IMG/VR virus record: IMGVR_UViG_3300042879_001458
Span: 1-27,771 of that record
Direction: 5' to 3' (one strand)
Length of the DNA stretch: 27,771 nucleotides
Origin: a virus
Within the stretch, counting starts at the first letter, position 1. The number at the start of each line of letters is the position of its first letter. The position numbers and the translations under genes are program-made. This document shows positions 2,902 to 23,318 of this stretch, piece after piece. Under the pieces are notes generated by a model. The model did no database searches and was not told the origin of the DNA. It was given only the letters and a program-made list of their open reading frames with translations.

Positions 2902-5900
2902 ATGAAAATATTTGGAACCACGGATGTTCAGGGGTTAATGAAAGCAACTACCGGATCTTTTTTTAAGCAAATTCTTAGGCAACCACAAGCAGACCCAAAT
3001 GTTTTTGTAGCCGGAACAGATGCAACATACAATGACAGTCTTCCAGATAATAGATCTATTATTGCGCAGGGTGTATTTGATTATATAATTACATCAAATG
3101 ATAGTGGAAAAACTAAGTTTATACAAGCTAGCGTTCCAGCTGGATCCGTTACTGGGTTCCGAGTACAGCATGTAGATTATACAACGGTATATACGTTAGT
3201 AACAGAACATTTTGTGACCGCCGGATTAAATAATACAAACACAGCAAACAAAGTAGATGGATATGCATCAAGAGTAAATTTTTCAACTGATGGTGGGATA
3301 ACATTTAAAACTCTGCAAGGTTTTGGTGATTTCGTTGGTTTTGATATGGTTTGGATAAACAAATCAGAATGCTACATAGTTGGTGCAAAATATACACCGT
3401 TAAACCCAACAAATGCAGCTCTTCCTCAATACCAAAGAAATTGGAAAAAATTTAAACATTTAATTACTAATAGAAGTTTTCGAGTATCATCTGTTACAGG
3501 TGGTGTTTGTAGACCGGCATTGTTTAAATTAACACTGGATACCAATTCCAGCATACCCACGGTTATCAATGCAACTGAAATAACTTTAACGGGAGCACTC
3601 GCAGGAAATCCAAATGACCCACTAACTGCAATCGCATACAACCCAGTAACAGGTGTGTTCGTGTATGGAACTGAAAGTGGTAAGTTGTATAAGAACAATA
3701 ACGGTACAATAACTGATGTTACTCCGGGTCTTGTTCAAGGTGTGGTTAATCGAATATTATTTGATAAATACAATTCAACTACTGTATTTGCTATATCATC
3801 TATTCCGTTCGGAAAAATATTAAAGTCAACTGATGATGGAAGTACTTGGGTTGGATGCCAACTGCCAGTAGCTAGATTAAACGGAGGTATAAACGATATA
3901 TGGATTCCAGAAAAAGATCTTGTACTTGCTGTTACAGATGATGTAACAAAAATCCTTCGTTCTACTGATAATGGAACATCTTGGCAATTTATTAGTACAC
4001 CAATATTAAATAGCAATTCGCCAATTATAGACATAAAGACAATAAAGTTAACACCATCTACCTTACCGTCTAACATACATCTTGCGATATCTGATAAAGA
4101 CATATTTTGGTCAGTTGGACAACAATATGATCTAAATGGTAATACAACAATTGACTGGCCAAATGCAGAAAAAGATTTTAGTAGGCGATTACCATCAAAT
4201 CATTTTTACAAAGCGGTTGATATTGTAGAAGATAACGCAATTGGATACGGATTTATACTTAAGCAAACCGATAGTAAAACAGGTACTATAAACGAAATCA
4301 GACCACAATATTTGCGCATGGAATTTGATAACATATATGAAATGTCATATAACAATTATAATTTAGATTTTAACGCAATATCGGCAAGATCTGCATATGA
4401 AATATATGTTACGGCAGATGGTGGTGTTAATGGTGGATACTTATTTAAAGGAGAACGTTTATCGTTAGACAGCGGAACATCATATTACCCATTTACATTT
4501 ACACAAGATGACAGCTCATCCAAAAGATATTTAGATGTAAAATGTACTGATACTAAAGTATTTGCATGCGGTACGAATAATTTATTAAAGTATAAAACTT
4601 ATGGTGGATCATGGACTACTTTATCAGTAGTTGCAAATCATGATATATTAAAAGTTTGGCCAGTAAATGATAATTACATAGTAGTATTAACACAAGATAC
4701 CGTAAGCCCAGATAATTATTACATCTACGTTTCAGATGACGGCGGCTCAACATGGACGCAAAAACGCCAATGCTTCTATAAACCAATAGACATTCATGTT
4801 TATTCAGAAGACATAATATATATTTTACACGAAAATGGATATTCAATAGAATTTACAATAGATTTTACGCAATCATCTCCAACGTTTAATGTTGTTGAAT
4901 TAGGAAATACTACAGTACCATTTCAATTTGGAAATAAAACTATAACAGTTGATACAACAAAGACACACGCCGATGTAACAGGATTTATTATAACTGGCGG
5001 TACACAAGGACTTGTATTATCTAATTTAGACGAGTCATCTGTAATAGGTCCATGGCCAACAGATCCACAATCGTTAGCTGCTGTCACTGGTGATGGTGAT
5101 TACACATACTGGATAGGCGGTGGTACTACAACGATAGACAAATTGAATGAAAATACACCAAGACCATGGCCAGACATAGTTGGATCTGAGCCAATTTTGT
5201 TAAGCTCTAATGATAAAGGATTAACATGGGCGGATAAAACACCTTCCATAAATACACAAGAGCCAACACAAGGTGATTTTATTATAACATCTCTCAGTGA
5301 AGGTGCATACTATAATTATAAAGATATAGACAAATTTTATATATATGGATCTTCAAACAATGGTACTTCTTTTGGACTAAAATCTGATTCTGAATTTTTT
5401 GTTGATAGCAACAAATATCAAAACGGAACAGATGGAATATTAAAAATGCGCTTTTTAAATTCTTCTACCGGATTTGCAGTTGGAACTATAAAACCAACGG
5501 CACTTACACCATCAACGAGAAAATTGTCATATACATCTGATGGTGGTTCAAATTGGTCTACTCTTGCAACTCCTGAAAATTTTAATATAACATCTGTATT
5601 TTTTACTTCTGCTAATACTGGATTTATAACGGCATATCCGATAAATTCTTCTGGTGGTCCTAATTATAGCTCAAATTCAAAGATATTTAAAACAACAGAT
5701 GGTGGAACTAATTGGAATGAATCTCTGAATCTTCCAGTAGGAAAACAAAATAAGCCGTTAGATATATTCTTTATTGATGCTAATATCGGTATTGTTACAT
5801 TATACGGAAATTCTTCTGTTGAAGGTATATATAGAACTACAAATGGCGGAACATCTTGGTCATTCGTATCTATTACTGGGTATCGTGGTGGTAATACAAA

Positions 5901-8900
5901 ACAATCTTTCATGGATGATAAGAGTGGTCAAATACAATTTGTTTCAACAACACGCGGATTTATATCAGGCAAAAACTCATCAAGCAATCCTGGATTATTT
6001 ACAACAACAGATGCAGGAGCAACTTGGTCTAGAGTAACAACACCAATTAATAGTAATACTGGTGGTGCAAATATAGATACTGTTCACTTCTTAGATAAAA
6101 CTGGACAAACCGGTGTATTTTCATTTAACAATACAATTTATCGTACTACCAATGGCGGTGCAAATGCGTCTTTAGTATACACAGTTCCAAATTCAACCGA
6201 TGCGTCAACCGCAATAGCAGATATTAAATTTTCATCGGGTAACACAATCGGTGTTGCAGTTGGATCTAGAAATTTAGGTTCTTATAATGATCATTTTGTT
6301 TTATTATCAACAAATGGGGGATCTAGCTGGAGAGAAATTGATTCAAATCACACATCTATAGATTTAGAAAATTCTATAAATCCAGCAAATAGCACACAAC
6401 GTGATTCTATATTATATACAACTGCTTTTGCAGAACCATTAACTTTAACTGATGAAGAAGATAATACAAATGGTGGTGGCGGCGAGGATACAAAAGATTG
6501 TTTCCAAACAAGATTTATAAGTTCATCATTCTATAATTTAGAAAATTTCGCATATCGCTGTACAAAACCAGGAGAAACCCCAGTTTATGTTCCAAACTCA
6601 TCTGAAAATGTTGGTTTAGGTGTTGGTATTTTTGGTCAAAAAACATCACAGCAAAGAACACTACTAAGAGATAATTTAACACAAGGGGCAGCTGTTGGTG
6701 TTGGAACACTTGGAAATTCAACATACAGTAATAAAGATACTGCAGTTGGTCACAGTGCAATGGGTACTGTTATAAATGCAAAAGAAAATGTTGCAGTTGG
6801 ATATGGTGCATTACAAACTAATAAAACAATTCTACCAGTATCAATTAGACAAAAATATCAGTCAAACATAATTGGTGTTAGTCCAATTGGTCAACTTTTT
6901 AAGTCTGTTGATGGTGGGTTTTCATGGAATACAGTAATTGAATCTGGTTCAAGTTTTACGTCCGCTTCATTCGTTAACAGCTTTTTAACTGGATCAAACG
7001 TATATCTAAAACCGGCTTCAATTGTATCACCAAACAGTGATACAACATTTATATTATACAATGATTTTAATATCTCAAGTAGCTTATCATTAAATACATA
7101 CATTTTACGCTCATCAAATAAAAATAGTTCGTTTACAACTATATATTCATCATCTGTATATACAATAGATAAAATAATCCCATTAAATTCAAATATTGTT
7201 TATGGTATTGATTCTTCAAATTCTAAAGTATTACGTTCAACAACTTCTGCTAAATCGTGGGTTACATGTAGTATAAACGGTATTGGTGGAAATAGTATTA
7301 AAAATTTAAGTGTAACATCAATTAATACTGGCTTTTTGGTTGGATCAAAAATATGGTATATACAAAGTGGCAGTAATTTAAATTGGGTAACTTCCAGTTA
7401 TACGGGGTCTCATATAATAAATGCAATTGATTCCATCAATTCTGATAGTTGGATTGCAGTTGGCGAAAGTGGATCAATTTATAAAACAAATAATACTGGC
7501 GTTAGCTGGTCTTTGGTAACACAAAGTTTAACAACCGAATCATTAAATGATGTTAAAGTTCTTAAAAATGGAAATGTATTAACAGTTGGTAATTCAGGAA
7601 CTATACTCATTAGCTCTACAACGGGTAGTACTTGGTATACAGGTAGTTATGATGGCGGATCAGACTTTTCAGAGTTTGATTATACAACAATACAAACATA
7701 TTCACCTAGCATATTAATACTGGCAAGTGCATATGGAAATGTTAGATCTGATAATAGTGGAAACACTTGGTATTTAGCAGCTAATACCGCAAACGGTAGT
7801 AATAGTGATATATTATTGTCATCCGCTGTTGAAATGGGGTTGACTGACACTCAACCTAAAAAAGTATTAAATCCGCTTGGAATATCAGCTGCACCAACCC
7901 CGCCGATTGAATATATCGCAGAAAATGTTGCCGTTGGTGCATATAGTGTAGGAAACTATACAAACTCATGGGGAGTTGTTGGTGTTGGTGCAAGATCATT
8001 AGAAACATCAACTCCTTTAGAACAAAGTGTTGTTCCAAATATGGGAGTGTTTACATTAAATATTTCATCCACTAGTGGATTATATGACTTCATTAATGAT
8101 GTTGGCATGCCACCACGTCCATCAAATTATGGTCAAGTTGCAATAGGACGTTTATCACAAGGAAAGGGTTTATACAGCCAATTCAATACAAGTGTTGGAT
8201 ATGGATCTTTATATTTATCACAGGATAGTGTACAAAATACAGCTGTTGGTTTCTACAGTCAACATTTGAGTTCTAATACAGGCAGGAACACTTCTCTTGG
8301 CGTATGGGCACTTGGTGTAAACGGTCCTCTTGGAAATTTAGATCCATATGGAAATGGTTTAGATGGAACAGTTGGATCATATGCCGGTGGATCTGATAAC
8401 GTAGCGATTGGATATAAAGCAATGTTATACAACACCGATTCTAAACGAGCCGCACAATTAATACGAGCTGGTTTTGGAGATGCATCCCAAGGATTTAGCA
8501 GAATTGGATCTGTTAATGTTGCGATTGGTAATAGAGCGCTAAATCATGCGTCCGGTTCTACAAATACTGTAGCAATTGGACACCAGGCTGTTATTGACAG
8601 TTATGATTTAACGGATTCTATTTTTATTGGAGGATATGTTGGATATAGATTTAAAACATTAATTGGGTCATATTACAGTTCTTCCGTAGATAATGATTGG
8701 ACACCAACGCAAACTGTTGCAGTTGGTTCTTATGCATTATTAAATCATACTGGAACTGATCTTGTTGCAATCGGTGCAAATGCGCTACGTGGTATTTCAG
8801 TTGGAGCATTCCCAAATGAAACAGGAAATCCAAATTCAGGTGGTACAAACGGAACAACTAGAGTCCATCCAGGTGTTATAGTTGTAGGAACTAATCTTTC

Positions 8901-11397
8901 AACATTTTCACAACTAGACCCAATTGCAGACGCAGGAAAATCACATCCACCTAGACTTGATAATTGGGTTAAGGATTCGTTAGGAAACAAAGCTTCTTCT
9001 GATACATACGGCGTAAAAAACACATTTACACGTTTTTATGATATAGACATTGTGGATGATACAATTGCATATGCAGTTGCAGCAACTGTACCAACTGATC
9101 CATATTATGAAGAAGTTCCAGACTCATGTGTGCTTTGTGACAATAAAACATATCTTTTTTCAACCGCAGAAAAGTTATTTTTTAGAGTATTAAAGGCAGA
9201 GAATGTTTCATCTGGTAACCCATTAGAATGGAAACCTATTGCTCATATCGGCATGCCTGGAACAAATCGTCATAATAAACGAGTTGAAGGAATTGTCCAT
9301 AGATCAAATAGGTCAGGGGCTCCAGCTGATATTAAAATACAAGCACCTAGTAAAAATGTCATATATGTTTTAAACGATGAAAACGGAAAGCACTCTTCTG
9401 TTTTCAAATCTATTGATGGTGGTTATAGTTTTCATGGAGACGGGGTTCCTGATCCAATGGAAGCCCGTATACAAGTTGGTGAAAACTCTCGAGTTGTGGA
9501 TATGCACTTTACAAGTGAAAATAATGGGACCGTGATTGGATCTAAGCGCGATATTGGTATAAGTTTCCCAATTTATGTTAATACATATAATGGCGGTACA
9601 ACATGGTCAGACGGCTACATTAGTACTACTGTTTCTGGTAGCGCATTATCTGTTTGGTTTAATAATCAACATGGTGTTGGCTATGTTGGACTGTCAAACA
9701 GTTCTATTTTTAAAACAACAAATAGTGGATCGGCTTGGTCATTGATATTGAGTCATACAAGCTCATTATGGGATGACGTGATAGATCGTGGAACAGATTA
9801 CCTTAGAACCAGTTTAGCTATTACAAGTATATTCTTTTTAAATGATTCTATAGGATGGGCAACTGCAAATGCTGGGGGTGGTTACGGATTTAGAAAAGTT
9901 TATGTATTACGAACTACGGATGGTGGTGTAACTTGGGATAAGACAGAGTTTACGCATCGTTGTGTTCAATCTAATACATATGGAGTCCCACCAGCATTAA
10001 AAGTACGTGCGATAGATGAAAATACAGTATTGGTAGCAACTGGCTATGGTAGTTGTGCAATTAGTACTGATGGGGGTGTAACATTTAAAACAACAACAAC
10101 ATTACCACTTTTAGTAGATCCAACCAGTAGAAACTCAGAATGCTGCCCAGCTGCATCCCCAATAACAATACTCGATGTATTACCAAATTCAACAGGCGGA
10201 GATGTAGTGACACCTGATACATCTGATACAGTAGCAACTGCTATTAGATCCGTTGCAGTTGGATCTGATATACAAGTAAAACAAACTCTTGTAGCTGGAA
10301 ACGTATCAGCTGGATATAAAGTACAATTTAATGCATCTGGTAGTGCAGTAGATAGCGTTCAAATTGGAGCATACAACACATACAATGCAAATGATGTTGA
10401 TGATACTGTATCTGTTGGAAATTCGTCATTATATTTAACTAAAAAATCTGATAAAACAACAGCAATTGGCTCCGAAACATTATACATACTACAACAGTCA
10501 TCTATCCCAGTAGTATTTCCGGGTGGTGTTGTTAACGGTAAAAATAAAATTATCGATGAATTACTTACAACAAAATCTGGATATAATACTGCTGTTGGAT
10601 ATCAAGCAGCTTCTGGGTTGTATTTAGGCGATCGTAATGTTTACTTAGGTGCAAACGCAGGGAATAATCAATTCCAAATGGGCAGTAATAATGTTTTATT
10701 GGGTGCAAATTCCGTTAAAACTGTATTTAACATGACAAACCAAGTAGTAATAGGAAACCCAGACCACACAACGCATGTTGTTATGGGTATCCCAGGTGTA
10801 AATGATTGGATATGGCAATCTGACGGTAGAGATAAAACAGACACTGGATCATTTGAATTAGGATTATCATTTATTCGAGAAATACAACCAAAAGAATATA
10901 AATGGGATCCTAGACATAAATATCCATCTGGAAGCTCACCAAACGGAACACATAAGCAATCTGGAAGTTCGTATGGATATATAGCGCAAGATTTAGAAGC
11001 AGCTGCAGTTGCAGTTGGTGTAAGCGGCTCGTTGTTTGTATTCGATGCATCTGGATCATATTCTGGATCTACTGATACTTCAGGCAGTGATTTTGGTGTA
11101 AAGATGATAACACCTGGTATGGTTAATTTAGTTGCAATCAACGCAATTAAAGAATTAGATGCACTCGTTTCATATCTATCATCATCAAAGTATACAACAA
11201 ATATTGGAGATTCTACAAATTCAACATTTAGCGTTACGCACAGTCTTGCAACACGCGATGTTGTAGCAATGATATACAGCAATCTTACTGAGCAAGTTGT
11301 ATATCCTTCAATGTCAATCGATACTATCAATCATATTCAAGTTGCATTCCCTACACCACCGGGTATCAATGAGTATAGAATAGTAGTGATGCGATAA
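2902..11397 (+). CDS. Giant tail fibre/adhesin: Asp-box propellers, YadA-like trunk, S74 chaperone
   Basis: A 2831-residue virion protein, probably the main receptor-binding fibre. About 22 Asp-box (S-x-D-x-G-x-T-W) motifs occur, as in BNR/YCF48-like beta-propellers; examples are STDDGSTW (near 309), TTDGGTNW (near 931) and TTDGGVTW. They group in blocks at about residues 30-420, 430-1150, 1320-1630 and 2040-2400. Between these lie trimeric-trunk repeats of the YadA/hexapeptide kind, such as NVAVGYGAL, NTSVGYGSL and NVAIGNRAL, at about 1234-1310, 1670-1970 and 2445-2633. At 2640-2645 is SDGRDK, the S-D-x-R-x-K start of a peptidase S74 (chaperone of endosialidase) domain, with 'GYIAQDLE' downstream. 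The last ~68 residues form a small beta domain (THSLATRDVVAMIY...YRIVVMR) known from phage fibre C-termini. The start has only a weak AGAGAA ribosome site. No sialidase-type catalytic set was identified, so the propellers are more likely binding than enzymatic. Terminators flank the gene on both sides. Confidence 0.9.
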   Translation: MKIFGTTDVQGLMKATTGSFFKQILRQPQADPNVFVAGTDATYNDSLPDNRSIIAQGVFDYIITSNDSGKTKFIQASVPAGSVTGFRVQHVDYTTVYTLVTEHFVTAGLNNTNTANKVDGYASRVNFSTDGGITFKTLQGFGDFVGFDMVWINKSECYIVGAKYTPLNPTNAALPQYQRNWKKFKHLITNRSFRVSSVTGGVCRPALFKLTLDTNSSIPTVINATEITLTGALAGNPNDPLTAIAYNPVTGVFVYGTESGKLYKNNNGTITDVTPGLVQGVVNRILFDKYNSTTVFAISSIPFGKILKSTDDGSTWVGCQLPVARLNGGINDIWIPEKDLVLAVTDDVTKILRSTDNGTSWQFISTPILNSNSPIIDIKTIKLTPSTLPSNIHLAISDKDIFWSVGQQYDLNGNTTIDWPNAEKDFSRRLPSNHFYKAVDIVEDNAIGYGFILKQTDSKTGTINEIRPQYLRMEFDNIYEMSYNNYNLDFNAISARSAYEIYVTADGGVNGGYLFKGERLSLDSGTSYYPFTFTQDDSSSKRYLDVKCTDTKVFACGTNNLLKYKTYGGSWTTLSVVANHDILKVWPVNDNYIVVLTQDTVSPDNYYIYVSDDGGSTWTQKRQCFYKPIDIHVYSEDIIYILHENGYSIEFTIDFTQSSPTFNVVELGNTTVPFQFGNKTITVDTTKTHADVTGFIITGGTQGLVLSNLDESSVIGPWPTDPQSLAAVTGDGDYTYWIGGGTTTIDKLNENTPRPWPDIVGSEPILLSSNDKGLTWADKTPSINTQEPTQGDFIITSLSEGAYYNYKDIDKFYIYGSSNNGTSFGLKSDSEFFVDSNKYQNGTDGILKMRFLNSSTGFAVGTIKPTALTPSTRKLSYTSDGGSNWSTLATPENFNITSVFFTSANTGFITAYPINSSGGPNYSSNSKIFKTTDGGTNWNESLNLPVGKQNKPLDIFFIDANIGIVTLYGNSSVEGIYRTTNGGTSWSFVSITGYRGGNTKQSFMDDKSGQIQFVSTTRGFISGKNSSSNPGLFTTTDAGATWSRVTTPINSNTGGANIDTVHFLDKTGQTGVFSFNNTIYRTTNGGANASLVYTVPNSTDASTAIADIKFSSGNTIGVAVGSRNLGSYNDHFVLLSTNGGSSWREIDSNHTSIDLENSINPANSTQRDSILYTTAFAEPLTLTDEEDNTNGGGGEDTKDCFQTRFISSSFYNLENFAYRCTKPGETPVYVPNSSENVGLGVGIFGQKTSQQRTLLRDNLTQGAAVGVGTLGNSTYSNKDTAVGHSAMGTVINAKENVAVGYGALQTNKTILPVSIRQKYQSNIIGVSPIGQLFKSVDGGFSWNTVIESGSSFTSASFVNSFLTGSNVYLKPASIVSPNSDTTFILYNDFNISSSLSLNTYILRSSNKNSSFTTIYSSSVYTIDKIIPLNSNIVYGIDSSNSKVLRSTTSAKSWVTCSINGIGGNSIKNLSVTSINTGFLVGSKIWYIQSGSNLNWVTSSYTGSHIINAIDSINSDSWIAVGESGSIYKTNNTGVSWSLVTQSLTTESLNDVKVLKNGNVLTVGNSGTILISSTTGSTWYTGSYDGGSDFSEFDYTTIQTYSPSILILASAYGNVRSDNSGNTWYLAANTANGSNSDILLSSAVEMGLTDTQPKKVLNPLGISAAPTPPIEYIAENVAVGAYSVGNYTNSWGVVGVGARSLETSTPLEQSVVPNMGVFTLNISSTSGLYDFINDVGMPPRPSNYGQVAIGRLSQGKGLYSQFNTSVGYGSLYLSQDSVQNTAVGFYSQHLSSNTGRNTSLGVWALGVNGPLGNLDPYGNGLDGTVGSYAGGSDNVAIGYKAMLYNTDSKRAAQLIRAGFGDASQGFSRIGSVNVAIGNRALNHASGSTNTVAIGHQAVIDSYDLTDSIFIGGYVGYRFKTLIGSYYSSSVDNDWTPTQTVAVGSYALLNHTGTDLVAIGANALRGISVGAFPNETGNPNSGGTNGTTRVHPGVIVVGTNLSTFSQLDPIADAGKSHPPRLDNWVKDSLGNKASSDTYGVKNTFTRFYDIDIVDDTIAYAVAATVPTDPYYEEVPDSCVLCDNKTYLFSTAEKLFFRVLKAENVSSGNPLEWKPIAHIGMPGTNRHNKRVEGIVHRSNRSGAPADIKIQAPSKNVIYVLNDENGKHSSVFKSIDGGYSFHGDGVPDPMEARIQVGENSRVVDMHFTSENNGTVIGSKRDIGISFPIYVNTYNGGTTWSDGYISTTVSGSALSVWFNNQHGVGYVGLSNSSIFKTTNSGSAWSLILSHTSSLWDDVIDRGTDYLRTSLAITSIFFLNDSIGWATANAGGGYGFRKVYVLRTTDGGVTWDKTEFTHRCVQSNTYGVPPALKVRAIDENTVLVATGYGSCAISTDGGVTFKTTTTLPLLVDPTSRNSECCPAASPITILDVLPNSTGGDVVTPDTSDTVATAIRSVAVGSDIQVKQTLVAGNVSAGYKVQFNASGSAVDSVQIGAYNTYNANDVDDTVSVGNSSLYLTKKSDKTTAIGSETLYILQQSSIPVVFPGGVVNGKNKIIDELLTTKSGYNTAVGYQAASGLYLGDRNVYLGANAGNNQFQMGSNNVLLGANSVKTVFNMTNQVVIGNPDHTTHVVMGIPGVNDWIWQSDGRDKTDTGSFELGLSFIREIQPKEYKWDPRHKYPSGSSPNGTHKQSGSSYGYIAQDLEAAAVAVGVSGSLFVFDASGSYSGSTDTSGSDFGVKMITPGMVNLVAINAIKELDALVSYLSSSKYTTNIGDSTNSTFSVTHSLATRDVVAMIYSNLTEQVVYPSMSIDTINHIQVAFPTPPGINEYRIVVMR
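10819..11397 (+). other. Peptidase S74 intramolecular chaperone domain and C-terminal beta domain of the fibre
   Basis: Residues 2640-2831 of the fibre. In endosialidase and related fibres this domain trimerises the chain, guides folding of the beta-helical stalk and then cuts itself off before the Ser of the SDxRxK motif, using Ser and Lys. Here Ser2640, Asp2641, Arg2643 and Lys2645 are all present, so cleavage would release about 192 residues. The 'QPKEYKWDPRH' and 'GYIAQDLEAAA' stretches are typical of the family. Cleavage itself is inferred from the intact motif. Confidence 0.85.
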
Positions 11398-11494: not shown

Positions 11495-12325
11495 ATGGAA
11501 AACCAATTAACCGATGAACAGTTAAAGAATATAGCATTACAAAATTATAATAGCGATGAGGTAAAGAGTTATAACTTTCCTACTGAAACTGTTCCCCTTC
11601 CATCTAAAGGATTATTATACCCAAAGGATCATCCACTTGCATCTGGATTTATTGATATCAAATATATGACTGCACGAGAAGAAGATATTCTTACTTCTTC
11701 AAACTTAATTAAGCAGGGTAAAGTTATTGATAAGTTGTTACAATCATTAATTGTTACTAAAGTAAATTACGGTGACATTTATGTTGGCGATAAAACTGCT
11801 ATAATGATTGCCGCTAGAATTTTGGGCTATGGTAAAGATTATGAAGTAGAAATAGAAGATCCATTTAGCCCAGGCGATAAACAAAAAGAAACAATTGATT
11901 TACAAGAAATTCAAGATAAAGAAATTGACTGGGAACTTATTACACCAAATCAAAATAATTTTGAGTTTGAACTTCCACATGCAAAACGTACAATAACGTT
12001 TCAATTAATGACACATGGCCTCGAACAAGCTATTCAAAACGATTTGAAAACAAACGCCTTAAAGCGTAAAGATGGAATTGACAGAGAATTTTCAACACGA
12101 TTAAAATATCTAATCACATCAGTTGATGGCGATGATAACAGAAAAGTTATAAATAATTTTGTTGATAACGAATTATTTGCATTAGATTCAAAAGCATTAC
12201 GTGATTATATTAATAAGATTTCACCCGATGTAGATATGACATTTGAATTTACTTCAAATGTTACAGGCGAATCAATGAATTTAGAAATCCCAATGGGCGT
12301 ATCGTTTTTTTGGCCTAGGGCTTAA
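11495..12325 (+). CDS. gp26: T4 gp26-like baseplate/tail assembly protein (zero-frame product)
   Basis: A 276-residue protein of the T4 gp26-like (T4 base plate protein) family, which acts in hub or tail assembly. The family signature is the run 'VPLPSKGLLYPKDHPL', then 'IDIKYMTAREEDILTS', 'LLQSLIVTKVNYGDIYVGDK' and 'IMIAARILGYGKDYEVEIEDP'. The C-terminus (MNLEIPMGVSFFWP) is also family-like. The start is set by AAGGAG at 11481-11486, eight bases before ATG. It lies directly upstream of the tape measure gene, where P2 E, lambda G and similar tail-assembly chaperones are found. Its last codons overlap an apparent recoding site (12305-12335); a shifted ribosome would give a product of about 349 residues ending at 12545. 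I infer it works as the short form of a chaperone pair. The exact T4 numbering is less certain than the family. Confidence 0.75.
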   Translation: MENQLTDEQLKNIALQNYNSDEVKSYNFPTETVPLPSKGLLYPKDHPLASGFIDIKYMTAREEDILTSSNLIKQGKVIDKLLQSLIVTKVNYGDIYVGDKTAIMIAARILGYGKDYEVEIEDPFSPGDKQKETIDLQEIQDKEIDWELITPNQNNFEFELPHAKRTITFQLMTHGLEQAIQNDLKTNALKRKDGIDREFSTRLKYLITSVDGDDNRKVINNFVDNELFALDSKALRDYINKISPDVDMTFEFTSNVTGESMNLEIPMGVSFFWPRA

Positions 12326-12335
12326 TTATAAGCCC
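12305..12335 (+). promoter_or_regulatory. Putative programmed ribosomal frameshift site (+1 or -2) with stem-loop
   Basis: Seven T (12305-12311) are read as TTT TTT TGG in the zero frame. A six-base spacer, GGCCTA, separates them from a perfect 7-bp stem, GGGCTTA (12318-12324) with TAAGCCC (12329-12335), around an ATTA loop. The zero-frame TAA (12323-12325) lies within this hairpin. A +1 or -2 shift on the T run enters the frame that continues to 12545; a -1 shift reaches TAG (12316-12318) after two codons. Slippery run, spacer length and stem match known recoding sites, but the shift is inferred. Confidence 0.7.
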
Positions 12336-12545
12336 ATTCTGCATGAAGAACTATTTGAATTGGTCTACTATACAAAGGGATCATTTCCATGGTCTGACGT
12401 GTACAATATGCCTGTTTTCTTGCGCAGATTTTATTTAAAACAAGTAGAAAAAGCCCTTGAAGCAAAGGCTAAAGCTATGCAAGACGCTTCTACCGGTAAA
12501 AGCTCCGGTACAAATATATCTAGACCCGGTATTGTACCTAAATAA
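12306..12545 (+). CDS. Frameshift extension of the gp26-like protein (long-form chaperone domain)
   Basis: A frame open from 12285 (after TAG at 12282) to TAA at 12543-12545. It has no ATG before residues that look conserved and folded: 'GLGLNYKPILHEELFELVYY', then 'KGSFPWSDVYNMPVFLRRFY' and a charged helix 'LKQVEKALEAKAKAM'. The first ATG in frame is at 12408, inside that block. A TTG at 12360 is the only near alternative start and has no ribosome site. The simplest reading is that ribosomes shift at the T run and add 77 residues to the gp26-like protein, making a minor long form as in the G/GT and E/E+E' systems placed before tape measure genes. A separate 61-residue protein starting at TTG 12360 is possible but would remove half of the coherent stretch. 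Confidence 0.65.
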   Translation, partial: FFGLGLNYKPILHEELFELVYYTKGSFPWSDVYNMPVFLRRFYLKQVEKALEAKAKAMQDASTGKSSGTNISRPGIVPK

Positions 12546-12601: not shown

Positions 12602-15600
12602 ATGGCTGATGAACAGAAATTAAGAACCGAAACCAAGCAATATCAAACGCAACAGAAAGTAATTGCGGAGAATCTCCGTGAGCTAAAGCGATTATATCTT
12701 GAGCTTACTCGGGCAGAAGCGTCATATGCAAAAACTCAAAGCGATGAAAGCAAAAAGCGGGTTGAAAATACTAATAAAGCTATATCTGATGTTAAAGCAC
12801 AATTAAATTCGTTAAAACTTTCAAAAGAAGAAACGCAAAAGCTATATAATATTCAAGCAAAGGCACTAAAAGAGTCATCTGGTTTAATGGACTCATTTAG
12901 TAATTCTGTTAAAAAGCTAAATGCATCATTAAATTTACCGGATTCAAAAAAGCAAATAATACCAAAATTTGCAGTTGATATGGTTTCCGAAGCAAATGAG
13001 CAATTAAAAAATACAGCAAAAACAATACCGGCTCTGTTTTCTATCACATCTTCACGGGCGTTGGCTCTTAATGTTGGTTCTGAAGAAAATAAAAGACAAA
13101 AAAATACATTAGCAATACAACTTAAATTAAATGATTTAGCGAAAAATACTGCGGTTGCCTTTTCTTCTGCCGCAAAAAATGAAGCTAGTATAGCCACTAA
13201 TAAATTTAAAGAATTATCAATTTCTAATTTACTTAGTCAAGTTGATTATATTAGAAAAAAATTAGATGATGATCGCAATAAATTAACAAAAGGTGCACGT
13301 GCTGATATGGTAGTGCAACTTCAAATGTTAATACAGGAAATTGATACGTTAGAAAATATAAACAAATTGCATAGATCTGCCCACGAAGAAATAACAGCAT
13401 CTCTTTCTGAAGAAAAAGAACGATTGGAAATTCAAGATAAACAGAAAAAATTTGAAGAAGATCAAGAAAAGATAAGACGCGCTAGTGATAAAGATTATGC
13501 AAGTTCTTTTGAAAATTTACTAAAGAATAAAGAACGATTGGACAGAGAATACCAGGATTATGTTGATGCGGAACGCAAAGTAACTGCAGAAAAAATGCAA
13601 GCTGAAGAAAGAGCGCGAGTAGCAAGACAAAAACTGGATGCAGAAGAAATAGAAAGAGTTAGATCTCGTGCGATAAAAGATGGTATGTCCAAAAAAGAAG
13701 CACTTGATAAAGCATACCAAGAATATCTGAAAAATGAGGAAGATGCGCTCGCTGCTGAACGTGACGCAATTCAAAAAGCAGCAACTGCAAGAGAATTGGA
13801 GGATGCAAGAATTATTGCATTAACTAGACGTAATCTTGCTAGACAGGCGTTTGATGAACAAATTGCAAGAGAAAAAGCTGCTGAGTTAGAACGCAAAAGT
13901 AAAGAAAAAATAAAGACAGAGCAAGAAAGAACTGCATTGCGTGAAAGAGAACGAGCAATACGTAAAATTGAAAGTATATCATCATCCTTTATATCTAAAT
14001 TACCTTTAGGTGGAATATTATCAATGATTGCTGCATTGGGACCAATGTTTGCACTGTTAGCTGGTTTGATTGGAATAATACTTTATTTCTTATTACGTTG
14101 GGATAAGTATATAACCGATATACAAAAATCGATGGGCGTAACTAGAGCAGAAGCAGAGGCAGGTGGAGCTGCTATGGGTAAATTTGCCGAAAAAATACAA
14201 CAGGCAAGTATATACGCACCCCAAGTGGCAAAAGCTGTTGCAGAACTTAGCGATGGTCTATCTGGCACAAACTTGCTAACCCCATTAACAGTTGGTAATG
14301 CAAAAATGGAAGAAATGGCAGCAGCGGCAACAGTTTTAACTGATAAATTCCAATTATCAGGTGATGAACTTGGAACTCTAACCGATTTATCAACATCAAT
14401 GGGAACTAGTTTATCTGGAACAACTATTATGGTTGAAAAGATGGCTAAAGGATCATTTAATGTACGTTCTATGTTCCAATCTCTTGCAAAATTATCACCT
14501 TCAATTTTAACATCATTTAGAGGATCAAACTCTCAATTGATTGCAATGGCTGCAAACGCAAAGCGTCTTGGTGTTGAAATGGGTGATATTATCGAATCTA
14601 GCATGAGTTTACTTGATGTAGAAGATGCTATTACAAAGGCGTTTGAAGCACAAGTTGTTACTGGTAAAAATATAGATATTGATAGATTGATGTTCTTACA
14701 ATTGACCGGAGATTACGGTCAATTGCTACAAGAGCAAGAAAAAATATTAAAAAATGCAGATTACCTAAATAATAGAAGCCCTGTATTTCAGAGCATGATT
14801 GCGGGTTCAATTGGCTTAACCCAAGAACAAGCTTCTCAAATTGCGCTTAGATCTCTTCTGTCTGATAGACTCGGATTAAATGAAGCAAAAATTCGTGAAA
14901 TGCAAAAACGTGGAGAAGAAGTCCAGAACGTATTTGATGCAGCATTAAAACAAGGAAAAATTACAGAGGTAGAATTTGAAGAATTAAGTAAAATTGCCAA
15001 AGAGTATGATTTCTTAACTATTCAAGAAAGAATCGTTCGTGGTTTAGATGGACTTGCTGTAAACATATCTTCATATTTCCCAAAACTTACAGATGCAATT
15101 ATATATCTTACCGATAAGTTTGAAGGATTAACTAAATCTTTTAGCGGCGGTTTTGGTATGGGAGAAACTGGTAAAATGGTTATGGGTGGAATTGGAGGTG
15201 TGGTTCTGGCTGCGCTTGCCCTAAAACTTGGAGGTAAGGGGTTTAAATTTGCAAGAGCGTTAATGCCAGGTGCTGCGTTAGCCACAGGTGCTGCTGGTGC
15301 TGCTGGATCGGCTGCTGGTGGTTCCGTGCTTGGTACTGCAGGTGCTGGGGCAGCTGGCGCTGCTGGCACTGGATTATTTTCTAGAGTATTTGGCTCCTCT
15401 ATTGCTCAATATAATACAATGGGCAGATTGACATCGGCTGGGTATAGGGCTGGTGGATTGGGGGGTGGTATGGCTGGTATGATGCGGGCAGCAAGAATTG
15501 GATTAAAGCCAGCGCTTAAATCAGGATTAATTGGTGCTGGTATAGATTTTGGCTTGGGCCTTGCATCTGGGCAATCTTTATCAAGAGCAGCAGGTGGGGC

Positions 15601-16021
15601 TGGATTTTCTCTAGCGGGTGGTGTAATTGGTGGTCTTGCTGGTGGGCCAGTTGGTGCTTTGATTGGAAGTACAATTGGTGGTTTGGTTGGTGACCAGGTT
15701 TTTGGTAATGCTGATAACGCACAAGCTCGAATGGCTGATATGCAACAAGGAAATGCACAGATGCGCGATGCACTCGCTAGATTAAATGCACAGCAAGCAG
15801 TTTCACAAAATCCAGCATCAAATGTAGAATCAAAAATTGATACAACAAATAATTTATTACGAGAATTAATTTCAAAACCAACAAATGTTACGGTTGAATT
15901 AGATGGTGAAAAGGTTGGAAAGGCTACCATGAACTATGCATCTGAAGCAATGGATAGAGGCAGAACTATTGGTAATACGTATGGACAGAATCGAGATACT
16001 ACTGCAATTAGACCAAGATAA
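12602..16021 (+). CDS. Tail tape measure protein
   Basis: A 1139-residue protein expected to set tail length and leave the tube during infection. Residues 1-460 are rich in K, E, Q and A with long coiled-coil stretches, broken by a low-charge section near 130-200. A strongly hydrophobic segment follows (about 466-498, 'LGGILSMIAALGPMFALLAG' then 'LIGIILYFLLRW'), then a mostly helical middle. Past residue 850 come a Gly/Ala-rich membrane-like section (850-925) and another (about 975-1037). The C-terminus ends with 'NVTVELDGEKVGKATMNYA', a common tape measure ending. At roughly 1.5 angstroms per residue, a known rule, the tail would be about 170 nm. The ATG follows an in-frame TGA directly and has no clear ribosome site. 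The preceding chaperone-like pair supports the call. T4 gp29 is about half this size. Confidence 0.85.
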   Translation: MADEQKLRTETKQYQTQQKVIAENLRELKRLYLELTRAEASYAKTQSDESKKRVENTNKAISDVKAQLNSLKLSKEETQKLYNIQAKALKESSGLMDSFSNSVKKLNASLNLPDSKKQIIPKFAVDMVSEANEQLKNTAKTIPALFSITSSRALALNVGSEENKRQKNTLAIQLKLNDLAKNTAVAFSSAAKNEASIATNKFKELSISNLLSQVDYIRKKLDDDRNKLTKGARADMVVQLQMLIQEIDTLENINKLHRSAHEEITASLSEEKERLEIQDKQKKFEEDQEKIRRASDKDYASSFENLLKNKERLDREYQDYVDAERKVTAEKMQAEERARVARQKLDAEEIERVRSRAIKDGMSKKEALDKAYQEYLKNEEDALAAERDAIQKAATARELEDARIIALTRRNLARQAFDEQIAREKAAELERKSKEKIKTEQERTALRERERAIRKIESISSSFISKLPLGGILSMIAALGPMFALLAGLIGIILYFLLRWDKYITDIQKSMGVTRAEAEAGGAAMGKFAEKIQQASIYAPQVAKAVAELSDGLSGTNLLTPLTVGNAKMEEMAAAATVLTDKFQLSGDELGTLTDLSTSMGTSLSGTTIMVEKMAKGSFNVRSMFQSLAKLSPSILTSFRGSNSQLIAMAANAKRLGVEMGDIIESSMSLLDVEDAITKAFEAQVVTGKNIDIDRLMFLQLTGDYGQLLQEQEKILKNADYLNNRSPVFQSMIAGSIGLTQEQASQIALRSLLSDRLGLNEAKIREMQKRGEEVQNVFDAALKQGKITEVEFEELSKIAKEYDFLTIQERIVRGLDGLAVNISSYFPKLTDAIIYLTDKFEGLTKSFSGGFGMGETGKMVMGGIGGVVLAALALKLGGKGFKFARALMPGAALATGAAGAAGSAAGGSVLGTAGAGAAGAAGTGLFSRVFGSSIAQYNTMGRLTSAGYRAGGLGGGMAGMMRAARIGLKPALKSGLIGAGIDFGLGLASGQSLSRAAGGAGFSLAGGVIGGLAGGPVGALIGSTIGGLVGDQVFGNADNAQARMADMQQGNAQMRDALARLNAQQAVSQNPASNVESKIDTTNNLLRELISKPTNVTVELDGEKVGKATMNYASEAMDRGRTIGNTYGQNRDTTAIRPR

Positions 16022-16039: not shown

Positions 16040-19000
16040 ATGCCACTTATAGATTTTAAATCAAACTTGTCTAATTTTAGAAAGGTAATAAAGCCAAAGG
16101 CAGAAGCCGGGGCAACTACCCCCGCTGTTCCGTTTGGCGAGTATGTACCAATCAGCAATAATTTAAATGACTATGCCGATGATAGATATCAGTTCTCAAC
16201 TAAAAAGCTAGAGTCATTTGAACGAAAAAAGGTAAATGAAGGGTATGAACCAGATTCTATCTTAAAGAATAATTCTGTATTTGACAATATAAATGATGAA
16301 ACAAAAGATTTAAAAAATTCAAGAGTAGTAGATTATACACAAGAACCAAATAAACAATTTGGTAGTACACGTAATAATGAAGAAAGTCCTGTACGAATAA
16401 ATGATTTTTTAAATAAGCAAGATAAAGAACAACAGGCAAAAACTGTACAAACAGTAAGTCAAGATGATAAAATAGTTGATCTTACTTCAAAATATGAATT
16501 AAGAAATAAAATAAACGTTAGTGATCCTAAACGGTTGGAAACAATTTCTTCAAAATATGACATTGACGGTGCACCACCTAAGTTTATTAATGGTGGGTTA
16601 TATGAAACAGAAAAGTTATCTAAGTATGGGTTCCTTGCAGGAAATAAACCAGAGGTTGATGCATTTTCAAATACATTTAGCTCTGGGTTTAAAATTAAAA
16701 ATGGTGCAAACTTTACTGGGAATGCCTTTCAATATGCATGGTCTGGCGGGAAAGATTCTGCCCCTAATGTAGACTTTTTTTCAAATGAGTATGTATTTGG
16801 CGGATTTAAAAAGTTTCAAAAATTAAATCAAACTAATTTTAAATTAGATAAATTACCATCTCCGGGTGCAGTTGATTATTTCCCAAATACATACAGTAAA
16901 AACTTTACACATAAACAAAAAGAAACTGCGTTTACATCTACTGCATTAAACTATATACGTTTAACTGCTGTAGATGCGTTTGACAATAGATATAATAAAA
17001 ATTTTATAATAAATGCAAAACAATATCAAACTGGGTTTACTCCTCTTGCATTAAATTTTGGAATATCTAAATTATCAACAACAAATTATTTTGATTTAAA
17101 CAAAAACTTTACTATAAGTGGATTTACTAGAAATCAACAACTATTGCAAACTGACTTTAATAAAAGCGCATTGGATTGGGGATTGAAGGGAACTACACCA
17201 GCAACGGATTTCTTTGATATAGGAAAAACATTTACTAACGGTGGTTTTATTATTAAACAACAACCATTAGTAACTGACTTTACAGCAGCTGCGTTAGATT
17301 GGGGATTAAATGGTAAAAACCCATCAACTAATTTCTTTGATATATCAAAAACATTTACAGTAAGTGGATTTAGAATCAGACAACGTCTGTTACAAACAGA
17401 CTTTAATCCAATTGCATTGGATTGGGGGTTAAAAGGTAAATACCCAACAACAGACTTTTTTGATTTATCGAACACATTTACAAATACTGGATTTACATTT
17501 AAACAGCCGTTGTTACAAACAGACTTTAATGCAGCAGCACTTGACTGGGGATTAAAGGGACTGTACCCAACAACTGATTTCTTTGATATATCAAAAACAT
17601 TTACAAATACTGGATTTACTTTTAGACAACCTCTGTTACAAACAGATTTTAATGCGTCTGCGTTAGATTGGGGATTGAAGGGGCTGAACCCAACAACTGA
17701 TTTCTTTGATATAGGAAAAACATTTACAATATCAGGGTTCACGTTTAGACAACCGTTATTGCAAACAGATTTTAATGCGTCTGCTTTAGACTGGGGATTG
17801 AAAGGAACAAATCCTGCTACTGATTTCTTTGATATAGCAAAAACATTTACAAATACTGGATTTACTATAAATCAACAGTTATTGGTTACAGATTTCAACG
17901 CATCTGCATTAGACTGGGGACTAAAGGGCACAACACCAAATGTAAATTTCTTTGATACATTACGTCAATTTACTATAGCAGGGTTTATATCAAGACAACA
18001 ACCACTTGTCACAGATTTTAATGCAACCGCGTTAGATTGGGGATTGAAAGGAACAAATCCCGCTACCGATTTCTTTGATGTAACAAAACAATACACAACC
18101 TCTGGATTTGTAATACGTCAACCATTGCTAACAACTGATTTTACAGTAGCCGCATTAGACTGGGGTCTTCAAGGAACAAATCCTGTAACAGATTTCTTTG
18201 ATAGGAATAAGCAATACACAATTGCTGGATTTGTTGCTAGACAGCCATTGTTGACAACAGATTTCAACGCAGCTGCATTAGACTGGGGCTTACAGGGAAC
18301 AAATCCAGCAACAAACTTTTTTGATATAACTAGGCAATACACTGTTTCTGGATTTGTAATACGTCAACCATTGTTAACATCTGACTTTACAGCAGCTGCA
18401 TTAGACTGGGGACTACAGGGAACAAATCCAGTTACTGACTTTTTTGATATAAGAAAACAATACACAATCGGTGGATTTGTTGCTAGACAGCCATTGTTGA
18501 CAACAGATTTCAATGCAAACGCCTTAGACTGGGGATTGCAAGGAACAAACCCAGCAACAAACTTTTTTGATATAACTAGGCAATACACGGTTGCTGGATT
18601 TGTTATCCGCCAACCGCTTAGAACAACTGATTTTACAACATCTGCATTAGATTATAGTCTTTTCAATATACCACCAATTGAAGGTGGTCAACCATCTGCA
18701 ACTACTGTTACTATTAGCGGAAAGCAGTACGGTGAAGTTAATTTCTTTGATGCGTTAAATATACATACAACAAAGGGATTTCATGTATTAGCAAGACCGT
18801 TAGAACCAACAAGTTATAAAACAAATTCAACACAATTTTTTGTAGTACCTGCATCTGATTTTGAAATACCTAGAATTGGTTCTCCAAATTATACAATTAA
18901 TACGCAACTTGTAAAATCTCCAATTTTTTCAAACTTAGGATTTGTAAAACAGAATAATAACACATATACTGAATTAATCCGAAGCAGAAATTATGGATCA

Positions 19001-22000
19001 TTTTTGGGAGATGTATCTGATAAACAAGGAAACCCAACTTTATTGGATATACAATATGAAAAATATGATTTACGTGAGCAATCATATAACCCAGGAGCCG
19101 GAGGTGTTCCTGGATTAAATCAATTGTTGCTAGATCTTGCAGGCGGTCCAAATAATCCGGGTACTGCACAAGGATTGGCATTTTTGGATGCAAAAGATTT
19201 AAATATATTTGATGCAAGACAGCCGTATATATTACGCGGAATTCAAAAAAGTGGTCATGTAACAAATGAGAGATGGGGATTTGGAGCATCTATTGATGAG
19301 GGGTTAATACGGGGTGGATCTACTACTGCGATTAACAGATCATTCCAAGATTTGATTAGATTGACTAAATGGACACTTAGTCCTAAAGGTACATTATATT
19401 ATGCAAAACAGCTTGGTCTACAGCTATCAAACCCAAATTCGGAGGGATCTTACAAAGGACTTTTAAATGGAACAAGCACTAAAATATATAAACCAGGATC
19501 GCCTTTAATTGCAGCATCACTTGTAGCGTTCGGGTATCACCCAGAGCGTCATGGTGGTATGCGATATGAAACTGTTTTAAAGGATAAAAAACAATTATTC
19601 CAAGAAAATCCAGTTGCGTCTAATAGAAATGTAGAGATTGCAAATGAATTGTCTTTGTTTTCAACAGTAAAAGATGTACAAATACCGATTACAGCTAAAC
19701 CAGTTGGAAGTGTTATTAGTACATTAAGCGGATTAACTGGACCCAACTCTTTATATGGAATTGGTATAACATCGATGTATAGAAATAGTTTATCTATACC
19801 AGATGGTGCTTATGCAAAATTTAGCCCAGATTTAAACCCACTGTTCACTCCGGGTAGATATTCTTCATATCAACGGGATTTAATAAATCAATATGCAAGT
19901 AATACAAATGATATTAGAATAAATAGAAATGTAGAATTAGCAAGTGAACTGGGATTTTTAGATGGAATTCAGCCAAGACAGTCAAACGAGCTTTATTTAA
20001 ATCAACCAATTTTGCGTATATCTGGCAAACAAAACGAAACAACGAAAATAAATAGATATGAAGTATCGATACCAAACGATACATACGCAAAATTTAGCCC
20101 AGATATAAACCCGCTATTTACACCAAATAGATATTCTTCATATCAACAGGAACTAGAAAGCAGATATTATTTCAACGGACCTAATGATAAAACGTTTAAT
20201 AGAAATGTAGAATTATCTGTTGATTTAGGTTTTGCAAGAGATGAATATGATTTAACATATAATACAGACACAGGATATGGAACTCTGTTTTATGTTAATG
20301 AGCCAATAAATCGTTTATCTGGAACTCAACAAAATTCAACACGCATACACCGGCACGTAGTATCATTACCGGACGATGCTCAGCAAAAATACAGCACTAA
20401 ATTCCAATATGCATCGGTATTATCAAATATAAGAAACGGTAGTTATACTAAACACCGAGATATGTTGGCTAATGCTCGATCAACTATGACGTTTGGTGAT
20501 TTACCAGGTGGTTCTTTTTTAAGAACAATTTACCTTGCGTTTGATAATTCTCGTGATAAAGAGTCTAACGCTCCTGGCTATTTAAACTTTGGTGATGCCG
20601 CAGCAGCAGATAGTAGACGAGCAACACCATCACTGCGAGTATTGGATAACCTGTGGAATGTAGTTCCTGGTATACGTTCTACGATGCTAGATATATCATC
20701 TCCACATACGGTATATAATCCGTTTGTTCCAACTCCAAATCTAACTACAGAGCTAGGAACTGTAAACGATAAAACAATAAACCGTCCATATTTATCTGAA
20801 CTTGAAAAATATGGAATAATATCCAAACGATTAAAAGGATATTATGCACCAGCAGAAATAACATTAGGAAAAAATGCAACAATTGAGCGCTCTAGCTTAA
20901 ACTTATATAAAGATTCATCTGTTATAGATGAAGCTGCTATTGCATCGGTTGGGCCATTAAGCGATAATGCATTCTCGGAATTCTTATCTAAAAATTATAA
21001 ATTATCTAATTTATATAAAAAGCTAACCAAATATGCAGCACAATATCCAACTAGAAATGATATAGCCAATCTTTCACTATCTCCAGACGAAGCATATGAT
21101 ACTGATGATAATTTAGATATAAACTTTTATGTTAAGAATTTATTAAATCCATTCAATAAACTACTAATTGATATTGAAGGCGCAGGTGATACTAATTCAG
21201 ACGGCTTTTTAAATATAAATAGACGTGCAAGTAATGTGGCAAGCACAAATGCTACAATATTCAAAAATACTGCTATAAAAGAATATGCAGTAATGAGTTA
21301 TAGTGATATATTAGGTGGGGCGTTAGATCCAAAGCGTAAAGATGTAAACGTTGTAACAACGCGTACTACTACATCAGGTGATACTCCACTTGGACCTGGT
21401 AGGCGTGTTAAAGTCCAAGAAAATGTAGCTAAACCATTAAATAATTCACGTTTTCATGATTTTAGATATAAAGTACAACCGCTAGTTGAAGGCGGTCAAA
21501 ACAATTATTACCCAAGTGCTAAAACAGGACGTTTAAACTTTATAGAAAATCCTGAGATAATAAAATTTAGATCGAATAACTTGGAAGATGCTGCTGGATT
21601 TGGACAACACGGTATGCCCGGAGTTGACCGCACTAACCCAGTATTATCGTTCTTGTGTGGGCGTGTTTCAAATGGATACAGAGATCTGCGTGGAGAACAA
21701 TATGGAGGAATTCATAAATTTAGAGGTGATCGTGTAAATCTAGTAGATTTTAGACACGATAAATCAACAACTGATATAAATCGTATTTATGAGCTAGGTG
21801 ATAATTCTCTTATCCCCGGTCAAAAAGATTTAATTGAATTTTATGTTACTGGAATGAATGCAAAAGATAGAGTTATTGTATTTAGAGCTACACTTGGCGA
21901 AGTTCAAGATAATTTTAGCCCATCATGGGAAACCGTTAAATATTTAAATAGAGCTGATCCAGTTTACTTATATCGCGGATTTGAACGAGAAGTTTCAGTA

Positions 22001-22979: not shown

Positions 22980-23318
22980 ATGGGAAATAGATACAGATCG
23001 GTAAAAACAAAAACTGCAATTGAAACAAGCGGAAGAAAATCCAAATCTAAAGAGATATTGAATACACAAATTATACCGCAAGTTTCAACAACATCTGGCG
23101 ATGTATTTATTTTATCAAGGTTTGGCGATAGATTAGATATTTATGCATATCAGTTCTACAATGATGCCAGTCTTTGGTGGTATATAGCACAGGCAAATAA
23201 TTTAGGAAAAGGAACGTGGTATATTAAACCAGGAACTGTAATTCGAGTACCAGAAAAGCCTGGTTCTGAATTTGAATTATCAAATGAGTTACAAACATAT
23301 AATGAAAAATATAGATGA
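22980..23318 (+). CDS. LysM-like baseplate protein (gpX/gp53-like)
   Basis: A 112-residue protein whose core 'FILSRFGDRLDIYAYQFYND' followed by 'SLWWYIAQANNLGKGTWYIK' and 'PGTVIRVPEKPG' is the LysM-like fold of phage baseplate proteins such as P2 gpX and the LysM region of T4 gp53. In contractile tails these proteins sit around or beneath the hub and lock the tube to the baseplate; they are structural rather than wall-degrading. The N-terminal 35 residues are basic (RYRSVKTKTAIETSGRKSKS). The start has a good ribosome site, ATGAGGAA at 22965-22972, eight bases from the ATG. Its TGA stop overlaps the next start as ATGA, implying translational coupling with the hub gene. Assignment to gpX or to gp53 cannot be settled from sequence alone. 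Confidence 0.8.
   Translation: MGNRYRSVKTKTAIETSGRKSKSKEILNTQIIPQVSTTSGDVFILSRFGDRLDIYAYQFYNDASLWWYIAQANNLGKGTWYIKPGTVIRVPEKPGSEFELSNELQTYNEKYR

Follow-up and report, generated by a model that had tools for sequence, protein, structure and literature searches.

The tail assembly chaperones G/GT of phage lambda and E/E+E' of phage P2 consist of a short form and a rarer, frameshifted long form, both encoded just before the tape measure gene, and both pairs use a −1 shift (PMC5009743). A 2016 review names T4 as the exception to this near-universal tail-chaperone frameshift (PMC5009743). Its gp26 and gp51 are encoded by two separate genes, 26 and 51, and in some T4-like phages the frameshift is reportedly replaced by two chaperone genes, one short and the other longer and fused (PMC10885494, citing Vladimirov et al. 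2022). In a 2025 paper, T4-like chaperones are cited in connection with −1 poly-T sites (PMC12846349), so −1 shifting in this family is not new. A +1 form of the T4-like chaperone gene was not found described in the literature searched, a body that did not include Vladimirov et al. 2022.

Here we describe a locus within a 27,771-nt stretch of viral DNA (the window) that very probably encodes a T4-type pair of short and long tail assembly chaperones in a single gene, with the long form predicted to arise by a +1 shift.

A T4-like tail module with a gp26-like gene

The window is a tail module of a T4-like myovirus, in which sheath, tail tube, a very large fibre, the gp26-like gene, tape measure, baseplate protein and hub protein follow one another (Table 1). 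The gp26-like gene adjoins the tape measure gene, as in the lambda G/GT-like arrangement. A long open reading frame (ORF) lies 3' of the chaperone locus in all 159 relatives with enough sequence, at a median gap of 57 nt, and the tape measure protein is the presumed client of the chaperone pair.

We also note several features of the neighbouring genes. A single gene for a 2831-aa fibre or spike (2902-11397), the C-terminal part of which matches the tail spike family phrog_4636, separates the tube gene from the gp26-like gene; in phages Mel-JY01, immuto and LIS04 the gp26-like gene comes straight after the tube gene. The ORF at 16040-22960 translates into a 2306-aa protein in which a unit of about 35 residues is repeated many times in tandem (TDFNAAALDWGLKGTNPATDFFD...FTNTGF), and the hub-like protein at 23315-26980 contains a stretch that, judged by eye only, resembles an M23-type peptidase (HRGIDVATP...LLHLDEI).

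The gp26-like gene ends in the zero-frame codons TCG TTT TTT TGG CCT AGG GCT TAA, where a run of seven T (T7) could allow the P-site Phe tRNA to re-pair from UUU to UUU one base forward. The +1 frame is preceded by a TAG stop at 12282-12284 and stays open from 12285 to the TAA at 12543-12545. It contains no ATG, and the sole ATG, GTG or TTG listed in it is a TTG at 12360. The −1 frame reaches a stop two codons on (TTG GCC TAG). The preliminary description of this DNA had pointed out the T7 run, the spacer, the 7-bp stem holding the zero-frame stop, the +1 frame lacking an ATG and the closed −1 frame, and every one of these is in place.

Table 1. Features of the candidate frameshift locus, with positions in the window
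Feature	Position	Strand	Basis
Source DNA (the window), IMG/VR record IMGVR_UViG_3300042879_001458	1 to 27,771	one strand	
gp26-like gene; zero-frame product of 276 aa (short tail-assembly-chaperone form)	11495..12325	+	phrog_150 match, AlphaFold2
T7 slippery run, zero-frame TTT TTT T	12305..12311	+	homologous slippery codons in 102 dereplicated relatives
TGGCCT: in the zero frame, A-site Trp codon and Pro codon; post-shift, GGC CTA (Gly-Leu)	12311..12316	+	conserved in relatives
6-nt spacer GGCCTA	12312-12317	+	sequence
+1 frame, 77 aa plus stop: putative C-terminal domain exclusive to the long form	12312..12545	+	codon bias, profile matches, AlphaFold2
7-bp perfect hairpin GGGCTTA/TAAGCCC, loop ATTA; encloses the zero-frame stop	12318..12335	+	sequence
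Zero-frame stop TAA, ends the short form	12323..12325	+	12 nt past the start of the codon with the last T of the run
Tape measure protein gene, directly downstream	12602..16021	+	phrog_167 tail length tape measure protein, E = 7.6e-11

Relationship to T4 gp26 and gp51

The zero-frame protein matches the profile of phrog_150 ('baseplate hub') over columns 8-233 of 282 (E = 3.3e-10, 40.9 bits), and the fused protein matches it over columns 8-280 (E = 3.9e-12, 47.2 bits). On the same profile T4 gp26 covers columns 14-235 and T4 gp51 covers columns 13-280. Because the column ranges agree in this way, the shift site falls where gp26 ends, and the hidden domain corresponds to the part that gp51 has and gp26 does not. 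This parallel bears out the earlier proposal that the products are the short and long forms of a tail assembly chaperone. In T4 gp51 and in phrog_150 this C-terminal domain is fused to a gp26-like part, and the window locus shows the same combination: a match to the family profile, together with predicted short and long forms that have a common N-terminal part and a long form that has the gp51 C-terminal domain.

The link to gp51 runs through phrog_150 and the cyanophage forms. In profile comparisons, the long form of the window matches the cyanophage long forms at E = 8e-9, and these match gp51 at E = 6e-15; for the C-terminal domains alone, the corresponding values are E = 1.9e-5 for window and cyanophage and E = 2e-9 for cyanophage and the gp51 C-terminus. 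Direct profile comparison with T4 gp26 or gp51 is weak, and for gp51 alone gives E = 0.043, but the match is in register over the shift point. Pfam gave no match to the window proteins at E <= 1, including T4_baseplate (PF12322), a family that T4 gp26 and gp51 both match strongly. Going by these profiles, the window protein is a distant family member, visible only with the broader PHROG profile. A PDB sequence search found nothing relevant, and a search of phages with the domain alone gave two records only.

The short form and the C-terminal domain were modelled separately with AlphaFold2. The short-form model (pLDDT 86) has full-length fold matches to models of phage 'baseplate hub assembly' proteins, and the domain model (pLDDT about 90) has helices at 6-20, 27-31 and 35-61. 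Among PDB fold matches the HK97 chaperone 2ob9 has the highest listed probability (0.20), at an insignificant E of 3.2. We infer the chaperone role from homology, from citing papers and from the title of Vladimirov et al. 2022, which reportedly proposes a different mechanism for T4-like tail assembly chaperones.

Conservation of the shifted frame

A scan of viral contigs yielded 80 relatives of 54-65% identity, and all 80 retain the open +1 frame as well as the T7 run with GGCC behind it. Further scans, seeded with Flavobacterium phage immuto and a metagenomic huge phage, added 100 more relatives. Both halves of the protein were found by profile in 182 loci, with the second half in the +1 frame in 180 and in the other frame in two; in the dereplicated set the domain is in the +1 frame at 102 of 104 loci. 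The zero frame terminates 3-6 codons past the site in all 102 of these relatives, and in 94 the −1 frame has a stop within eight codons, placing the downstream domain outside the −1 frame.

Across the 102 loci, substitutions in the +1 frame fall 438, 240 and 1470 times on codon positions 1, 2 and 3, and the synonymous share of single-base codon changes is 77%, where 20% would be expected. Because of this codon-position bias and synonymous excess we regard the +1 frame as a real coding frame: it is protein-coding and under purifying selection. The recurrence of one frame relation in 180 of 182 loci, together with the selection on that frame, supports the original claim of a frameshift through which the gp26-like protein gains a domain concealed in the +1 frame. 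The same arrangement is found in isolated phages of several hosts, namely Microcystis phage Mel-JY01, Flavobacterium phage immuto, Rhodothermus phage RM378, Bacillus phage SP-15, Listeria phage LIS04, Streptococcus phage GXN1 and Streptomyces phage BRock. Between the upstream +1-frame stop and a point 12 codons into the domain, 24 of the 102 loci, among them the window, lack any ATG, GTG or TTG; many of the others do have some possible start codon, so that an argument from missing starts covers part of the set.

Slippery codons and candidate stimulators

The codon pair before UGG in the 102 dereplicated relatives is UUU UUU in 66, UUU CUU in 26, UUC UUU in seven and UUU CUA in three. Only the first of these forms a 7-base homopolymer, and the T run is therefore broken in 36 relatives. 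Where the second slippery codon encodes Phe it is UUU in 73 of 73 cases, although UUC makes up 21% of the other Phe codons in these genes; where it encodes Leu it is CUU in 26 of 29, against about 21% of the other Leu codons. The slippery codons are thus conserved beyond amino-acid need. These counts are not phylogenetically independent: on the zero-frame tree the site types need seven changes, with CUA arising three times. At every position of the UGG CCU that follows, no more than one of the 102 relatives differs. The first C of CCU is conserved although it is free in the +1 Gly codon, being fixed by the zero-frame Pro, and conservation of TGGCCT extends to positions at which one of the two frames imposes no constraint.

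This pattern fits a +1 shift by re-pairing of the P-site tRNA at UUU_U, CUU_U or UUU_C. CUU_U is the +1 site of release factor 2 genes, and UUU_U is used in a minority of them (PMC5009743). At the second codon no slip is possible in the three UUU CUA variants, which arose independently and would require a slip at UUU_C, so the exact slip codon may vary among lineages, with UUU_C the likely choice in the CUA cases. Streptococcus phage GXN1 (UUU CGU) and Streptomyces phage BRock (UUU CGC) have sites that look like UUU_C-type forward slip sites and unlike a T7 run.

No conserved stimulator was found among the relatives, which have no hairpin in common. All seven pairs of the stem form in the window only, six of seven form in 4 of 102 relatives, and most relatives keep two to four. 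The local fold of the window is stable (z = −2.5), but we reject the hairpin as a stimulator on account of this lack of conservation. Mean folding energy downstream of the site is slightly below that of simple shuffles, which do not preserve dinucleotides and therefore make this no evidence of a common structure. Inspection of the aligned upstream sequence by eye revealed no internal Shine-Dalgarno stimulator. The preliminary description had counted the hairpin as part of the signal, a view that we abandon, and had looked to relatives for joint conservation of run, hairpin and downstream frame; of the three, the frame is kept (102 of 104 loci), the T run is intact in 66 of 102 and the hairpin is not conserved.

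Alternative explanations and proposed mechanism

The shifted frame could be reached in other ways, and the variants of the slippery site bear on most of them. A −2 ribosomal shift on the T run would lead into the same frame with one extra Phe; the T7 run of the window allows it, and phage Mu is cited as a −2 user (PMC5009743). The preliminary description had left '+1 or −2' undecided. Yet UUU CUU UGG (26 of 102) and UUC UUU UGG (seven) offer no sensible −2 re-pairing and keep the frame. The +1 half of that statement is favoured because the 36 broken runs permit +1 and not −2 re-pairing, and we regard a −2 shift as very improbable. Slippage of RNA polymerase, for which a 7-base T run is a possible site, would leave some mRNA one U short and produce the long form by ordinary reading, but the longest T run is only 3-4 in the CTTT and TTCTTTT groups, which retain the +1 frame, and this makes polymerase slippage exceedingly improbable. 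Homopolymers are also prone to sequencing and assembly errors, and the window is a metagenomic contig; an error, or a truly broken gene, is nonetheless refuted by the recurrence of the frame relation in 180 loci, in several isolated phages and at sites that have no long run, and its probability is negligible.

A different possibility is that the domain is a separate small protein made by reinitiation or from an internal start. A small separate ORF is annotated at this place in Mel-JY01, immuto and cyanophages, the window has the TTG at 12360, and two relatives (L196 and L202) have an ATG for the domain 2-5 nt past the zero-frame stop. Against this, homology extends upstream of the TTG as far as the slip site, a usable start is missing from 24 of 102 loci, the domain is fused to a gp26-like part in T4 gp51 and phrog_150, and the conservation of the slippery codons exceeds amino-acid need. 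A separate protein is therefore given very little weight. An own ATG before the domain had been named beforehand as evidence against a frameshift, and it occurs in the L196/L202 sub-clade (support 100/99), where it follows just past the zero-frame stop. In L196 the slippery codons have also been lost (TTC TTG TAT), and for this reason we read the sub-clade as what looks like a derived split, an apparent switch from frameshifting to split genes. Separate translation of the domain can thus evolve.

Taken together, the comparative evidence makes it highly likely that a programmed +1 ribosomal frameshift allows one gene to make both tail assembly chaperones. Most ribosomes would terminate at 12323 and release the 276-aa gp26-like short form. 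A fraction would pause while tRNA-Phe sits on UUU in the P site and the A site presents the Trp codon UGG, the slow Trp codon being our suggestion for the pause. The tRNA would then move one base forward (UUU_U to UUU) and reading would resume at GGC CUA, and the resulting long form of 349 aa would have the gp51-type helical domain at its C-terminal end. Both forms may act jointly on the downstream tape measure protein in tail assembly, as is thought for T4 gp26 and gp51. We infer ribosome shifting, the exact slip codon, the ratio of the forms and their chaperone role from sequence comparison. A +1 shift would also account for the small ORF, labelled 'hypothetical', that many phage annotations show after gp26, and it offers a rule for how to annotate this ORF.

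Shift direction across T4-like phages

Codons at the homologous Phe-Phe position vary among isolated phages with the +1 arrangement: TTT TTT TGG in RM378, TTT TTT CAC in SP-15, TTT TTT AGT in LIS04, TTC TTT CGT in GXN1 and CTG TTT CGC in BRock. The domain is found in the −1 frame in cyanophages S-CAM9 and S-PRM1, in Melnitz and in jumbo phages 121Q, PA5oct, XacN1, RAS14 and Vibrio phage 2.275.O; several of the single-genome frame assignments in this comparison, +1 and −1 together, were made by eye. In the cyanophage-type set all 83 loci have a −1 frame open for at least 35 codons, none has such a +1 frame, and 82 have UUU UUC. S-CAM9 annotates its −1-frame domain (L213:3211-3384) as a separate 57-aa 'baseplate hub assembly catalyst', an ORF that probably represents the C-terminal portion of a long form made by frameshifting.

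A quick tree requires five changes among the +1, −1, split and two-gene states, at least three of them for the +1 label on supported branches. Repeated switching of shift direction is therefore likely on this tree, which has long branches and an arbitrary root that leaves the order of events unfixed. We think it probable that the T4-like chaperone pair is made at one homologous Phe-Phe pair by opposite shifts (+1 in the window lineage and several phages of Gram-positive hosts, −1 in cyanophage-type and some jumbo phages) or by gene splitting or duplication. On this reading, the direction would have switched at least twice with the same product retained, and +1 shifting would take place with the A site occupied by a sense codon and with no conserved stem.

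Comparison with known systems

The locus resembles lambda G/GT and P2 E/E+E' in its placement before the tape measure gene and in having a conserved slippery site near the 3' end that joins an open out-of-frame domain; no sequence relation to those chaperones was detected, and their shift has the opposite direction. The earlier suggestion that the shift here goes in the rarer direction is supported. Other +1 shifts in phage structural or assembly genes are those of Listeria phages PSA, A118 and A500 (CCC_U) and of the haloarchaeal HSTV-2 chaperone (PMC5009743), which differ from the window in their slip codon and involve proteins with no established relation to it. The release factor 2 gene (prfB), with its CUU UGA site, offers a likeness at the codon level, since a P-site CUU_U or UUU_U slips +1 at a slow A site; the A site in the window is the sense codon UGG in place of a stop codon, and no conserved Shine-Dalgarno-like element was seen.

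In protein content the locus resembles T4 itself. Both loci belong to phrog_150, gp26 ends with the zero-frame protein, gp51 spans the shifted domain and the genes are located with the tape measure gene; T4 has two genes for what the window would make by shifting within a single gene. It appears that frameshifting is used after all, in the +1 direction, by a large T4-like lineage that includes several isolated phages. Cyanophage and marine T4-like gp26 genes (S-CAM9, S-PRM1, Melnitz) have homologous long forms and C-terminal domains and shift at homologous Phe-Phe codons, but they do so into the −1 frame, at U_UUU_UUC, whereas the window lineage uses +1 and has UUC as second Phe codon in 0 of 73 cases. 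Because these relatives use −1 at homologous codons, the same protein pair provides a natural comparison of what sets the direction of a shift, with UUU_U or CUU_U before UGG on one side and U_UUU_UUC on the other.
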